Source: Eleftheria terrae (GTDB lineage Bacteria; Pseudomonadota; Gammaproteobacteria; Burkholderiales; Burkholderiaceae_C). From it: a DNA stretch of 64,000 nucleotides. A program made the position numbers and the translations under genes. This document shows positions 34,948-64,000 of this stretch, piece after piece (the stretch's first letter is position 1; every line of letters starts with the position of its first letter). The notes under the pieces were generated by a model, which was not told the origin of the DNA, ran no database searches, and saw only the letters and a list, made by a program, of their open reading frames with translations. Location: positions 434,001 through 498,000 of the forward strand of contig NZ_CP106952.1 in NCBI RefSeq assembly GCF_030419005.1, in the 5' to 3' direction.

Positions 34948-34963
34948 CTACGTGAACACGTAG
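34948..34963. promoter_or_regulatory. palindrome CTACGTG-AA-CACGTAG, candidate NRPS operator
   Basis: A perfect 7-bp inverted repeat with a 2-bp centre ends 71 bp before the preferred NRPS start. It is the best candidate for direct control of the peptide operon. No regulator gene is adjacent in the window, so the binding protein is unknown. Confidence 0.5.
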
Positions 34964-35034
34964 TTGTTGAGACTCGCCGACGTTGTGTGTAATCGCACGG
35001 GTTCATGGCGGACCATCTTGAAGGACCTTGGAGT

Positions 35035-36950
35035 ATGAGCAAGTACGACGGCAGTTCCGAAGCAACCTTGTCGAGCGGGTCCGCCCCGGGGCCATTGCAG
35101 GTCCCCGCTCCGGATGCCGGCGTGATGAGCGAGCAGGAGCGTCGACAAGTGCTGACGATGTGGAACGACACCGCTTGCGACTACCCGCAGGACCGGTGCA
35201 TCCACGAGTTGTTCGAAGGCCAGGCCGATCGTGCGCCACAGGCGCTCGCCCTGGCATGCCAGGGCGAGCAGCTGAGCTATCGCGCGCTCGATGAACTGGC
35301 CAATCAGCTGGCACACCATCTGCGCGCACTCGGCGTGGGGCCGGACGCGCGTGTCGCGATCTGCATGCCCAGTGGCCTGCAACGCATGACGGCGGTGCTG
35401 GCCACCTGGAAGGCCGGTGGCGCCTATGTGCCGCTGGACCCGGCCTATCCCGTCGAGCGGCTCGAGTACATGGTGCGCGACAGTGCGCCCACGGTCCTGC
35501 TGACGCATGCCGATGTGGCTGCAGGGCTGCGTGCCTCGCTGCGCGAGGCGTTGCCGCCGCGGGCGGCGATGCTCGACGTGCAGGCCGACGCAGCCGCCTG
35601 GTCGGCGCAACCGCGCAGCCGCCTGCCGCGCAGCGCGATGGGGCTCGAGCCGCATCACCTGGCCTATGTGATCTATACCTCGGGCTCGACGGGGCAACCC
35701 AAGGGGGTCATGGTCGAGCACCGCGGCGTGTGCAACCTGGCGACGGCCCAGGTGCGCGCCTTCGCGGTCGAGCCCGACAGCCGCATCCTGCAATGCGCCT
35801 CCTTCAGCTTCGATGCCTGCCTGTTCGAGATGGTGATGGCCTTGTGCAACGGGGCGTCGCTGCATCTGCCTGCGGCCGGTGCGGTGGTGGCGGGCACGGT
35901 GCTGACCCGCCTGCTGGTCGAGCAGCGCATCACCCACGCCACCCTGACGCCGTCCGTGCTGGCGGCCATCGACGACCCGGGCTGCCTCGCGAGCGTGCGG
36001 ACGCTGGTGGTGGCCGGTGAGGCCTGCCCGCCGGCGCTGGTGGAACGCTGGGCGTTTGGAAGGCGCTTCATCAACGCCTACGGTCCGACCGAGACCACCG
36101 TGTGGGCGACCTGGCACGAGTGCAGGCTGCCCGTCGACGGCCGTCCACCGATCGGCCGGCCAATCGCCAACATGCAGGTGTATGTGCTTGACGAGCAGCG
36201 GCGTCCAGTGCCAGTGGGCGTGCCGGGCGAGCTGTACATCGGCGGCGCGGGCGTGGCGCGTGGCTACCTGAACCGGGAGGCGCTGACGCGTGAGCGCTTC
36301 GTCGAGGACCCGTTCGCGACGCAGCCCGCCGGGCGCCTGTACAAGACGGGCGACCTCGCCTGCTGGCGGGCCGATGGCACGCTGGACTACCTGGGCCGCA
36401 ATGACCAGCAGGTCAAGTTGCGCGGCCTGCGCATCGAGCTCGGCGAGATCGAGGCGCAGCTGGTGAAGCAGCCCGGTGTTCGCGAGGCCGCGGTGCTGGT
36501 GCGCGAGGATGTGCCCGGCGACAAGCGCCTGGTGGCCTATGTGGTCGCCGGCCCGCAAGCGCAGGAGATCGATCCGCATGCCTTGCGCCAGGCACTGGCG
36601 CGGACCCTGCCCGAGTACATGGTGCCGGCCGCCTATGTGGCCTTGCCGACGTTGCCGATGACGCCCAACGGCAAGCTCGATCGCCAGGCCTTGCCAGCGC
36701 CGCAGCGCCGCGCATTCGCGCAGCGCGCCTACGTGGCCCCGCAGGACGGGCACGAAGCGGCCCTGGCCGACGTCTGGCAGGAGCTGCTGCGGGTCGAGCG
36801 CATCGGCCGCGACGACCATTTCTTCGAGCTGGGCGGGCATTCGCTGCTGGCCGTGCAGATGAGCTCGCGGCTGCGCCAGCGCCTGGAGCGGGAGGTGGCG
36901 GTCTCGAGCTTGTTCGCCCATCCTGTGCTGCGCGACTTTGCCGCGGTGGT
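35035..36950 (+). other. NRPS module 1: A-T, predicted Phe-like starter
   Basis: The adenylation domain (about 35199-36690) has the core YVIYTSGSTGQPKG. Pocket residues at the ten standard positions read DAFTVAAVWK by my alignment to GrsA, close to Phe codes (DAFTVAAVCK) but with Trp at position 331, so another aromatic residue is possible. The carrier serine codon is 36841. It starts the chain with a free amine. Confidence 0.7.
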
Positions 36951-62102: not shown

Positions 62103-63880
62103 GCCGGGCCCGTTCCTCCTATGGATCGCTGTGGCAGCTGCTGCGCCTGGCCCGTCCGCCCGGCCTGCTGCTCGCGGCGGCCACCGGCATTGCGGTGCTG
62201 TCGGTCGCCGGCACGCTGGGCTTCCCGGTGTTGACCCGGCAACTGGTCGATGAGCTGGCCGGCGGCATGGTGAACCAGGCCAGCATCGTGCTGCTGGCGG
62301 TGGTGATGCTCGGCTCCGCGCTGGCCTCCGGGCTGTCGTCCTACCTGCTCGGTCGGGTCGGGCACGAGATGATCGCGGCGCTGCGCAGCTTGTTGATCGA
62401 CAAGCTGCTCAGGTTGCCGGTCGCCTCGTATGACGAGGAAAGCACCGGTGAGCGTGTCAGCCGCGTGCTGAACGACTGCCAGTCGATCTCGGAGCTGGCG
62501 ACGCGCCAGGCCATCAACCTGTTGACGGGCGTGCTGGTGCTGGCCGGGTCGGTGGTCGTGCTCCTGTACCTGGACGTGCGGCTGACGCTCACCGTGCTGG
62601 GCTGCGTTGCCGCCGCCTTTGCGGTGGTGATTCCGTTGGCGGGCCTGCTGGAAGGCCTGGGGCGCAGCACGCAGGACCGCACCGCCAAGCTGGGCGGCAT
62701 CCTCACCCATGTGCTGTCGGAGATCCGCCTGGTCAAGGCATTCACCGCCGAGGCGCGCGAGCGCGAGCGCAACCGGCAGGAGATCGAGGACATCCGGCGG
62801 CTCGGCTTCCAGGTGGCGAAGATCAACGCCGCGCTTGAGCCGCTGATCAGCCTGTCGCTGACGGCGGCGGTGCTGTTCATCCTCGTCTACGGCAGTGCGC
62901 GCGTGAGCAGCGGCAGCATCAGCATCGGCACGCTGACCGCGTTCATCCTGTACATCTTCAATGTCGCCGTGCCGCTGATCCAGCTGACCAACTTCATGGC
63001 GGAGCTGCAGAAGGCCAAGGGCGCGTCCACCCGCATCGCCGCGCTGCTGCAGCATGGCGAAGAGGAGGGCCGTGAGGGCGAGGCGGTCGGCAACACGCAC
63101 GGGACGCTGGAGTTCCGCGAGGTGTCGTTCTCCTACCCGGGGCGCGATGCCAAGGTGCTGCACGGCATCAACCTGGCGTTCCGGCCGGGCACGACCACTG
63201 CGCTGGTGGGCGCCAGTGGCAATGGCAAGACCACCATCCTGTCGCTGATCGAGCGCTTCTATGCGCCCACCGAAGGCGCGGTGCTCTATGACGGCAAGCC
63301 GATCGGCGACTTCTCGCTGGGCGCCTGGCGCGAGCGCATCGGCTACGTGGCGCAGAGCGCGCCCATCATGCCGGGCACCGTGCGCGACAACATCCTCTAC
63401 GGCCTGTCCGGCGCCTACAGCGACGACATGGTGCGCATGGCCGCCGAGAAGGCCGGCGCGCTCGAGTTCATCGAGCAGATGCCGCAAGGCCTAGACACCG
63501 TGCTGAGCGAGCAGGGCGGCAACCTCTCGGGCGGGCAGCGGCAGCGCATTGCGATCGCCCGCATGTTCCTGCGCAATCCCGACATCCTGATCCTGGATGA
63601 AGCGACCTCCAGCCTGGACAGCGAGACCGAGCACCGCGTCAAGGTGGCGCTGGAATCGCTGATGCAGGGGCGCACCAATATCGTGGTGGCCCACCGGCTG
63701 GCCACCGTCATCCATGCCGACCGCATCTACTTCCTCGAAGGCGGGCGCATCTCGGGCTCGGGCAGCCATGAAGAGCTGTTGAACTCGCATCCCTACTACG
63801 CGCGCCTGGTGGCGCGGCAGTTCCGCAAGCCGGTGCAGGAGGGCGTGGAGCCGCTGCTGGTCGGAACCGGTACGAATTGA
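62099..63880 (+). CDS. ABC exporter, fused membrane and ATPase half-transporter
   Basis: A 593-residue half-transporter that should work as a homodimer. The N-terminal ~320 residues form the six-helix exporter domain (for example LLLAAATGIAVLSVAGTLGF, ASIVLLAVVMLGSALASGL). The ATPase part has Walker A GASGNGKTT, Q-loop YVAQSAP, signature LSGGQRQR, Walker B ILILDEATSSLD and H-loop VVAHRLAT. It is similar in layout to BmrA/MsbA-type multidrug exporters. Its start overlaps the preceding small ORF by 4 bp, so it is part of the NRPS operon and probably exports the peptide and gives self-protection. Confidence 0.92.
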   Translation: MSRARSSYGSLWQLLRLARPPGLLLAAATGIAVLSVAGTLGFPVLTRQLVDELAGGMVNQASIVLLAVVMLGSALASGLSSYLLGRVGHEMIAALRSLLIDKLLRLPVASYDEESTGERVSRVLNDCQSISELATRQAINLLTGVLVLAGSVVVLLYLDVRLTLTVLGCVAAAFAVVIPLAGLLEGLGRSTQDRTAKLGGILTHVLSEIRLVKAFTAEARERERNRQEIEDIRRLGFQVAKINAALEPLISLSLTAAVLFILVYGSARVSSGSISIGTLTAFILYIFNVAVPLIQLTNFMAELQKAKGASTRIAALLQHGEEEGREGEAVGNTHGTLEFREVSFSYPGRDAKVLHGINLAFRPGTTTALVGASGNGKTTILSLIERFYAPTEGAVLYDGKPIGDFSLGAWRERIGYVAQSAPIMPGTVRDNILYGLSGAYSDDMVRMAAEKAGALEFIEQMPQGLDTVLSEQGGNLSGGQRQRIAIARMFLRNPDILILDEATSSLDSETEHRVKVALESLMQGRTNIVVAHRLATVIHADRIYFLEGGRISGSGSHEELLNSHPYYARLVARQFRKPVQEGVEPLLVGTGTN

Positions 63881-63895
63881 GGAGAGAAGTTGTCT

Positions 63896-64000
63896 ATGAA
63901 TCTACGCAATGAACTTCAGGAAATCGCCGGGCGCAATATCCTTCTCCAGGTGAAGCCGCTCACCCATTCGCTCGACTGGGCCAGGCAGAACAAGGAGCAG
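63896..64000 (+). CDS. truncated gene, possibly a TauD/SyrP-like Fe(II)/2-oxoglutarate hydroxylase
   Basis: Only the first 35 codons are inside the window, starting 15 bp after the exporter stop with GGAGAG upstream; an in-frame TTG at 63890 is an alternative start. The reading NILLQVKPLTHSLDWARQNK resembles the N-terminal strand and helix of TauD/TfdA-type dioxygenases, in which a (D)L-x-x-W-x-x-x-N-(K/R)-(E) helix precedes the HGAxLFRGF segment. This is a weak, inference-level call. If right, it would beta-hydroxylate a carrier-bound residue such as the Asn of module 5. Confidence 0.4.
   Translation, partial: MNLRNELQEIAGRNILLQVKPLTHSLDWARQNKEQ

Follow-up and report, generated by a model that had tools for sequence, protein, structure and literature searches.

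Which peptide does the non-ribosomal peptide synthetase (NRPS) operon of Eleftheria terrae make, and how did its assembly line come to select its present set of residues? The operon was studied in a 64,000-nucleotide stretch of the genome (G000:C3:434001-498000, hereafter the window); the genome is of 7.03-Mb in four contigs, with 91 condensation-domain matches. The explanation that best accommodates the observations as a whole, and that we consider probable, is that the operon directs an octapeptide hydroxylated at its fifth residue, an asparagine, and belongs to a family diversified by the copying and relocation of adenylation cores.

The assembly line and its predicted octapeptide

The first synthetase, NRPS1 (six modules, 35035..54552), lies in a reading frame open from 35005 to 54552 (6515 aa), the database copy beginning at Met11. 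The second frame is open from 54405 to 61853, and NRPS2 (54549..61853) likely starts at the ATG at 54549, giving a four-base overlap with the NRPS1 stop. All operon features described within the window are on the plus strand. NRPS1 exhibits the domain order A-T-C-A-T-E/C-A-T-E/C-A-T-C-C-A-T-E/C-A-T, and NRPS2 the order C-A-T-C-A-T-TE (A, adenylation; T, thiolation; C, condensation; E/C, dual epimerization/condensation; TE, thioesterase). The A, T and C domains carry their core motifs and there is one TE (61080..61754, GWSGG), as in modular type I NRPSs; the total is eight modules. An ABC exporter (ABC_membrane and ABC_tran; 62099..63880) follows. The original prediction of two coupled genes with eight modules, a TE and an exporter is thus borne out by the open reading frames and the domain order. 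Its account left out a second, tandem C-like domain in module 5 (C5b) and what follows base 64000, where the operon goes on with genes for a TauD-family dioxygenase and then a small anticodon-binding-like protein. That the operon is complete and encodes a non-ribosomal octapeptide is well predicted from its sequence.

The pocket codes were read by aligning A1 (domains are numbered by module) to the GrsA core of 1AMU, after which all A cores were aligned together; the residue at position 517 was assumed to be Lys. The eight codes proposed earlier were all reproduced exactly. Module 1 (A-T, 35164..36930) reads DAFTVAAVWK, which we take to specify an aromatic residue, Phe. This loading module has no C domain, and no starter C domain of the lipo-initiation kind was found at the N-terminus, the line opening with A; initiation would therefore be by a free amino acid, not by a fatty acid. 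Module 4 (E/C-A-T, 43444..46650) reads DVWHISLVDK, presumably Ser, and module 6 (E/C-A-T, 51286..54456) reads DLFNNALTYK. The A-T part of module 5 (49447..51210) reads DATKVGEVGK, assigned to Asn in the accessible text of PMC3547906. Module 2 (C-A-T, 36985..40119) and modules 7 and 8 of NRPS2 share the code DAWFLGNVVK, which stands for Leu in the accessible text of PMC7524897 and PMC12283262. The code of module 3 (E/C-A-T, 40180..43371), DAEDIGTVVK, matches the Lys code DGEDHGTVVK at 7 of the 9 read positions, and the Arg trend likewise at 7 of 9 (PMC12283262, accessible text); given these equal matches, residue 3 would be Lys or Arg.

Three of the condensation domains had been proposed to be dual E/C domains. 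Consistent with this, the copies of four clusters, 12 sequences in all, make up a clade with no other member (support 1.0). Dual domains are characterized by the motif HH[I/L]xxxxGD, and E/C3 and E/C6 fully fit both this motif and HHxxxDH. The E/C domain of module 3 is expected to epimerize residue 2.

In the proposed pathway, module 1 would load an aromatic residue, most likely Phe, as the free amino acid, and the seven extension modules would add Leu, Lys/Arg, Ser, Asn, Ala, Leu and Leu. The D-form is expected at residues 2 and 5, and probably at 3, through the dual domains. The TauD-family (SyrP-like) dioxygenase would hydroxylate the beta carbon of Asn5, with C5b perhaps serving to position the enzyme, after which the TE would free the peptide in cyclic or linear form for export by the ABC protein. 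The predicted product is Phe-D-Leu-(D-)Lys/Arg-Ser-D-(beta-OH)Asn-Ala-Leu-Leu, its substrates, stereochemistry, hydroxylation site and ring or linear form all being deduced from sequence. For the hydroxylated peptide with Lys, the calculated [M+H]+ is 903.5298 if cyclic and 921.5404 if linear; with Arg the values are 931.536 and 949.5465, and each would be lower by 15.995 in the unhydroxylated form. The residue order first put forward stands; the Lys at residue 3 becomes Lys or Arg, its D-configuration is less sure, and a hydroxylation that had been mentioned as possible now has a concrete candidate enzyme.

Several points weigh against the product as drawn. Lys and Arg tie at residue 3. Ala at residue 6 is our assumption for DLFNNALTYK. 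The E/C4 domain reads HYLLQTRGD and misses one motif His (HH in three orthologs), and because of this HY epimerization of residue 3 is less certain. The E/C3 domain of three relatives keeps HH and D, not the G of the GD motif.

A described product with the same residue order was not found in the accessible part of the literature retrieved with the codes, with Luteibacter, Lysobacter and octapeptide, with brevitalea clusters, or with hydroxyasparagine and Lysobacter, in keeping with the earlier statement that the peptide has no described match.

Related clusters and the proposed movement of adenylation cores

The host shares 87% identity in its glutamyl-tRNA synthetase (GltX) with Caldimonas brevitalea and with Aquabacterium sp. 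A7-Y, and the next eight organism-named matches (P0130 to P0142) are all from Caldimonas (82-84%). The host is thus a betaproteobacterium, as had been supposed, and Caldimonas-like. A protein search with 5000 residues of NRPS1 as query, of which the best 120 of 853 matches were considered, gave five relatives with 63-70% identity over 86-99% of the query: P0007, P0008 (Montanilutibacter psychrotolerans), P0013, P0019 (Lysobacter sp. CA196) and P0040, from a Luteibacter metagenome-assembled genome (MAG; G869, 100% identical). The occurrence of the cluster was counted in genome sets that are samples of larger groups. Among 299 genomes of the host's family, the dioxygenase (E<=1e-100) is found in the host itself and nowhere else. 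The psychrotolerans family has it in 7 of 297 genomes, at 81-82% identity in psychrotolerans and in a second genome, G256, and at 52-57% in the other five genomes and in a second G256 copy. The TE (E<=1e-60) is present in 2 of 397 genomes of the psychrotolerans order, psychrotolerans and the Luteibacter MAG. A search of genome contigs with the TE as query gave no match; one with the C5b alignment did. These counts make the cluster an outlier in its own family with kin in Lysobacterales, and its horizontal transfer is likely.

The closest counterpart in predicted product is the Luteibacter cluster, with eight modules, the same predicted residues and six of the eight codes identical to those of the window; A1 (DAFTAAAVWK) and A4 (DVWHVSLVDK) each deviate at one position. 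An ABC exporter and a TauD-type dioxygenase follow (NRPS1-NRPS2-ABC-HYD). It differs in having no C5b and, in the stretch examined, no CmlA-like match, and its dioxygenase is 51% identical and belongs to another part of the tree. No description of its product was found in the accessible part of the literature searched. P0013 exhibits the same first six predicted residues as the window. The line is thus not unique. Two Lysobacteraceae clusters, those of Lysobacter (Montanilutibacter) psychrotolerans ZS60 and G256, share the architecture including C5b, the exporter and the dioxygenase. They differ in the predicted residues at positions 1, 4, 6 and 8, in a different basic code at position 3, in an intact CmlA/FrsH-like gene (NRPS1-NRPS2-CmlA-ABC-HYD) and in the lack of an anticodon-binding-like match in their 40-kb stretches.

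The differences in predicted residues are concentrated in the adenylation cores. Between the window and psychrotolerans, the C, T, TE and dual domains, C5b excepted, are 65-87% identical. The middle thirds of A2, A3, A5 and A7 are 66-84% identical, whereas those of A1, A4, A6 and A8 reach only 31-39%. In the comparison with Luteibacter, identity in the middle thirds is 68-83% for every one of the eight A domains, and some T domains fall to 59%. When cores cut by motifs were compared all-against-all, high identities appeared across positions. The psychrotolerans A1 core shares 88% identity with window A6, 80% with G256 A1 and 30% with window A1. Within one line, the A4 and A5 cores reach 97% identity in psychrotolerans, 95% in G256, 99% in P0007 and 98% in P0019; Asn cores across species are 71-92% identical. 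In psychrotolerans and G256 the near identity of A4 and A5 covers the whole A domain and is lost in the adjoining C and T regions. In P0019, A1 and A2 share 94% identity. The alternation of Ser and Asn at position 4 and of Phe, Ala and Leu at position 1 is best explained by the copying or relocation of selectors within the family. The proposed moves, putative in their direction, would be Asn from 5 to 4 and Leu from 2 to 1, with the position-6 "Ala" core turning up at position 1. The products of the family would vary because the adenylation cores are copied and relocated while the C, T and TE domains stay in place.

Cores for the same substrate also resemble each other within a line. The A2 and A7 cores are 99% identical in psychrotolerans, 99% in G256, 94% in Luteibacter and 99% in the window, compared with 77-89% between species. 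In the window the A-domain DNA is 99.7% identical between A7 and A8, which are 99.2 and 99.4% identical to A2, respectively. In three relatives the A2 and A7 DNA is 85-87% identical, and their A8 is 58-74% identical to A2 or A7. DNA identities of 99.2-99.7% within one genome could also be produced by an assembly artefact affecting modules 2, 7 and 8. We consider this extremely improbable, since the A2 and A7 cores are 94-99% identical in each of three other clusters, and the three window modules differ by 4-7% over about 3 kb. Homogenization of same-substrate cores within lines best explains the pattern.

The substitution of A domains or subdomains is an established driver of NRPS diversity (PMC7486941, PMC9205934, accessible text), and the mechanism itself is therefore known. 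In the pyoverdine and wollamide/desotamide systems described there, A domains or A cores have likewise been replaced between conserved C and T domains, the source being intragenomic for wollamide. Unlike in those systems, the cores here match ones from elsewhere in the line or the family, at several positions and with homogenization. The family may thus be read as a natural record of A-domain exchanges, with predicted residues changed at four of the eight positions between the window and psychrotolerans and the flanking domains, C5b aside, still 65-87% identical. Such exchange is the aim of hand-made NRPS engineering, and the likely core donors can be pointed out, since the enzymes themselves contain similar cores. 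The family also offers a defined product hypothesis, two tailoring enzymes with a presence/absence pattern, and a test of the extra C-like domain. The operon is ordinary in kind; it is unusual for the plainness of its selector shuffling and for the turnover of its tailoring genes.

Tailoring genes and the second C-like domain of module 5

The dioxygenase gene starts at 63896 and runs through the end of the window (63896..64000) to window-equivalent 64858 (63896-64858; L001:390-1358). Its product matches the TauD profile PF02668 (5.7e-40), with the HxE and the distal H of the metal triad aligned, and no NCBIfam model at E<=1e-5. We call it SyrP-like by its family, the comparison having included no SyrP sequence. 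The HxE and distal H are kept in the psychrotolerans and G256 copies (80-82% identity). The gene follows the exporter in all four clusters with the downstream region read (window, psychrotolerans, G256 and Luteibacter). The Asn code at A5 is present in all seven distinct NRPS1 proteins compared, among which the codes of A1, A3, A4 and A6 vary. Beta-hydroxylation of Asn5 is the simplest reading, and probably the right one. Related dioxygenases act on several residues, and it is gene context and family that point to Asn here; the enzyme may use Ser4 or another site. However, that it acts on Leu, Lys/Arg, Ser or a free amino acid appears unlikely to us: of all positions, it is Asn5 and Leu2 whose code is constant across the seven NRPS1 proteins, and a separate CmlA/FrsH-like enzyme would be available for another residue in the psychrotolerans and G256 clusters.

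This second enzyme, a putative diiron hydroxylase, is encoded intact between NRPS2 and the exporter in both clusters. The CmlA-like protein exhibits full-length similarity to CmlA (4JO0, 3.7e-83) and to 8A90 (5.3e-98), which we take to be FrsH. In the window, the gene survives as a short 5' remnant only, of about 58 bases (61871-61928), at the start of a 77-aa reading frame (61870..62103). There 9 of 13 residues match (E 0.01, in a small comparison). The DNA alignment score is 42 against psychrotolerans and 35 against G256, and in neither case did any of 300 triplet shuffles reach it (maximum 36 and, narrowly, 34, respectively). A C-terminal match of the 77-aa frame to the CmlA-like protein was weak and was dropped, the 5' match alone being kept. 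Another CmlA-like gene, 42% identical, is located elsewhere in the host genome (C3:648615-650189).

Module 5 contains an ordinary first C domain, C5a (46705..48039, HHTVSDG), followed by C5b (48109..49410), of which the motif is HHIVADR in place of HHxxxDG. In the window, P0007, P0008 and G256, C5b is complete and open over its full length, with the common motif H[HR][IL]VADR (the variant with HR occurs in psychrotolerans, G256 and P0019). It is shortened in P0019, a remnant in P0013 and absent in the Luteibacter MAG. In a tree of 140 of 143 C domains (three under 300 aa were dropped), C5b groups solely with the psychrotolerans, G256 and Lysobacter sp. Root690 copies (support 1.0); no firm neighbour beyond Root690 was found in this tree, the next node having support 0.04. 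AlphaFold predicts a complete C fold (pLDDT 82.8), of which the nearest structures in a fold search are the Txo1/Txo2 C domains, with teicoplanin X-domain structures at ranks 8 and 12, one of them with OxyB. X-domains stand near the end of their line and recruit P450s; the modelled C5b resembles them in its C-like fold and differs in preceding an A domain. Siderophore interface (I) domains are similar in that an extra C-like domain goes with a trans-acting hydroxylase (Reitz 2019, as described in citing texts); the operon studied here has a tandem C position in module 5 and a dioxygenase gene. Unlike in those systems, the code here is for Asn and no siderophore genes were seen in the operon. 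By analogy, C5b is a plausible docking domain for the trans-acting dioxygenase. When psychrotolerans and Root690 are set aside, 14 of 20 loci with C5b-like domains hold a dioxygenase homolog, a count taken with no matched control set, and several of these 20 loci have fused, siderophore-like arrangements.

Two observations speak against the docking role. The C5b relative of Root690 precedes a Thr-like A domain, not an Asn one, and Luteibacter has a dioxygenase of another lineage with no C5b, so that such an enzyme does not depend on C5b. C5b could instead be a functionless leftover of recombination in decay, a reading that we rather doubt. Its absence, remnant or shortened state in three relatives would suit such a relic, as would its 58-62% identity, against 78-81% for C5a and A5, between the window and the psychrotolerans and G256 clusters; the full open copies in four clusters with their shared motif, and the complete predicted fold, argue for a retained domain.

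C domains of the modAA type keep HHxxxDG and follow a Ser or Thr donor. C5b adjoins the Ser module, and modAA is a known C subtype (PMC10212144, accessible text), so that C5b might dehydrate Ser4 to dehydroalanine, placing Dha4 in the product. This we judge highly unlikely, and the candidate was rejected. The motif has DR instead of DG, with HR for HH in P0008, P0019 and G256, and C5b stays full-length or nearly so in four clusters where residue 4 is Asn (P0007, psychrotolerans/P0008, P0019 and G256), being lost or reduced in the two other Ser4 clusters (Luteibacter and P0013).

Some further loci carry similar elements. In Lysobacter sp. Root690 (L002), the C5b relative (40%) stands in tandem in a large NRPS region, about 60 kb from a dioxygenase homolog (41%). 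Within the psychrotolerans family, NRPS regions with a 55-56% identical dioxygenase and a 34% identical CmlA-like gene occur at the second G256 locus (L047/L048), in G254 (L049/L050) and in G026 (L051/L052). A dioxygenase homolog with one internal TGA is found at L042 (G193:C9:128264-129190).

The end of the operon and other features

The last operon gene (window-equivalent 64940-65422; L001:1440-1922) encodes an orphan protein of 158-160 aa that matches Anticodon_2 (2.6e-7) and resembles the anticodon-binding domain of glutamyl-tRNA synthetase. Its AlphaFold model is of low confidence (pLDDT 45.9). Among 5.8 billion proteins, in a search that needs shared five-residue words, it is joined by just two homologs, with 33-36% identity. 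BLAST gave no match to the host GltX at E<=10 and none at E<=1e-3 in the psychrotolerans, G256 and Luteibacter stretches, and there was no NCBIfam model at E<=1e-5. If this protein were a self-protection factor, an aminoacyl-tRNA synthetase would be suggested as the target. A more ambitious scheme, which we regard as quite unlikely in its entirety, has selectors moving within the line (6 to 1, 5 to 4, 2 to 1, and 7/2 to 8), C5b docking the trans dioxygenase and being lost where the dioxygenase lineage changed, and the orphan protein possibly protecting the producer. The exporter had no NCBIfam model above the cut-off among the matches listed (25 of 183).

Elsewhere in the genome, condensation-domain matches on contigs C2, C3 and C4 include NRPS reading frames of 11173, 9245, 7314 and 6213 codons, and contig C3 (784-kb) holds several NRPS regions. 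One locus (L056/L057; G000:C3:283001-320000) is a siderophore-like NRPS with a fused TauD dioxygenase, a separate TauD, MbtH and tandem C-type pairs. Within the window, upstream of the NRPS genes, 30351-33107 encodes an E1-type dehydrogenase with transketolase and oxoglutarate dehydrogenase C-terminal domains, and 25836-26996 a DUF6748 protein with a Kazal-type inhibitor match. On the minus strand, an 875-aa reading frame (20021-22648) exhibits actin-like ALP_N and MreB-like C-terminal matches, and the frame at 18195-19172 a PEP-CTERM sorting-motif match.

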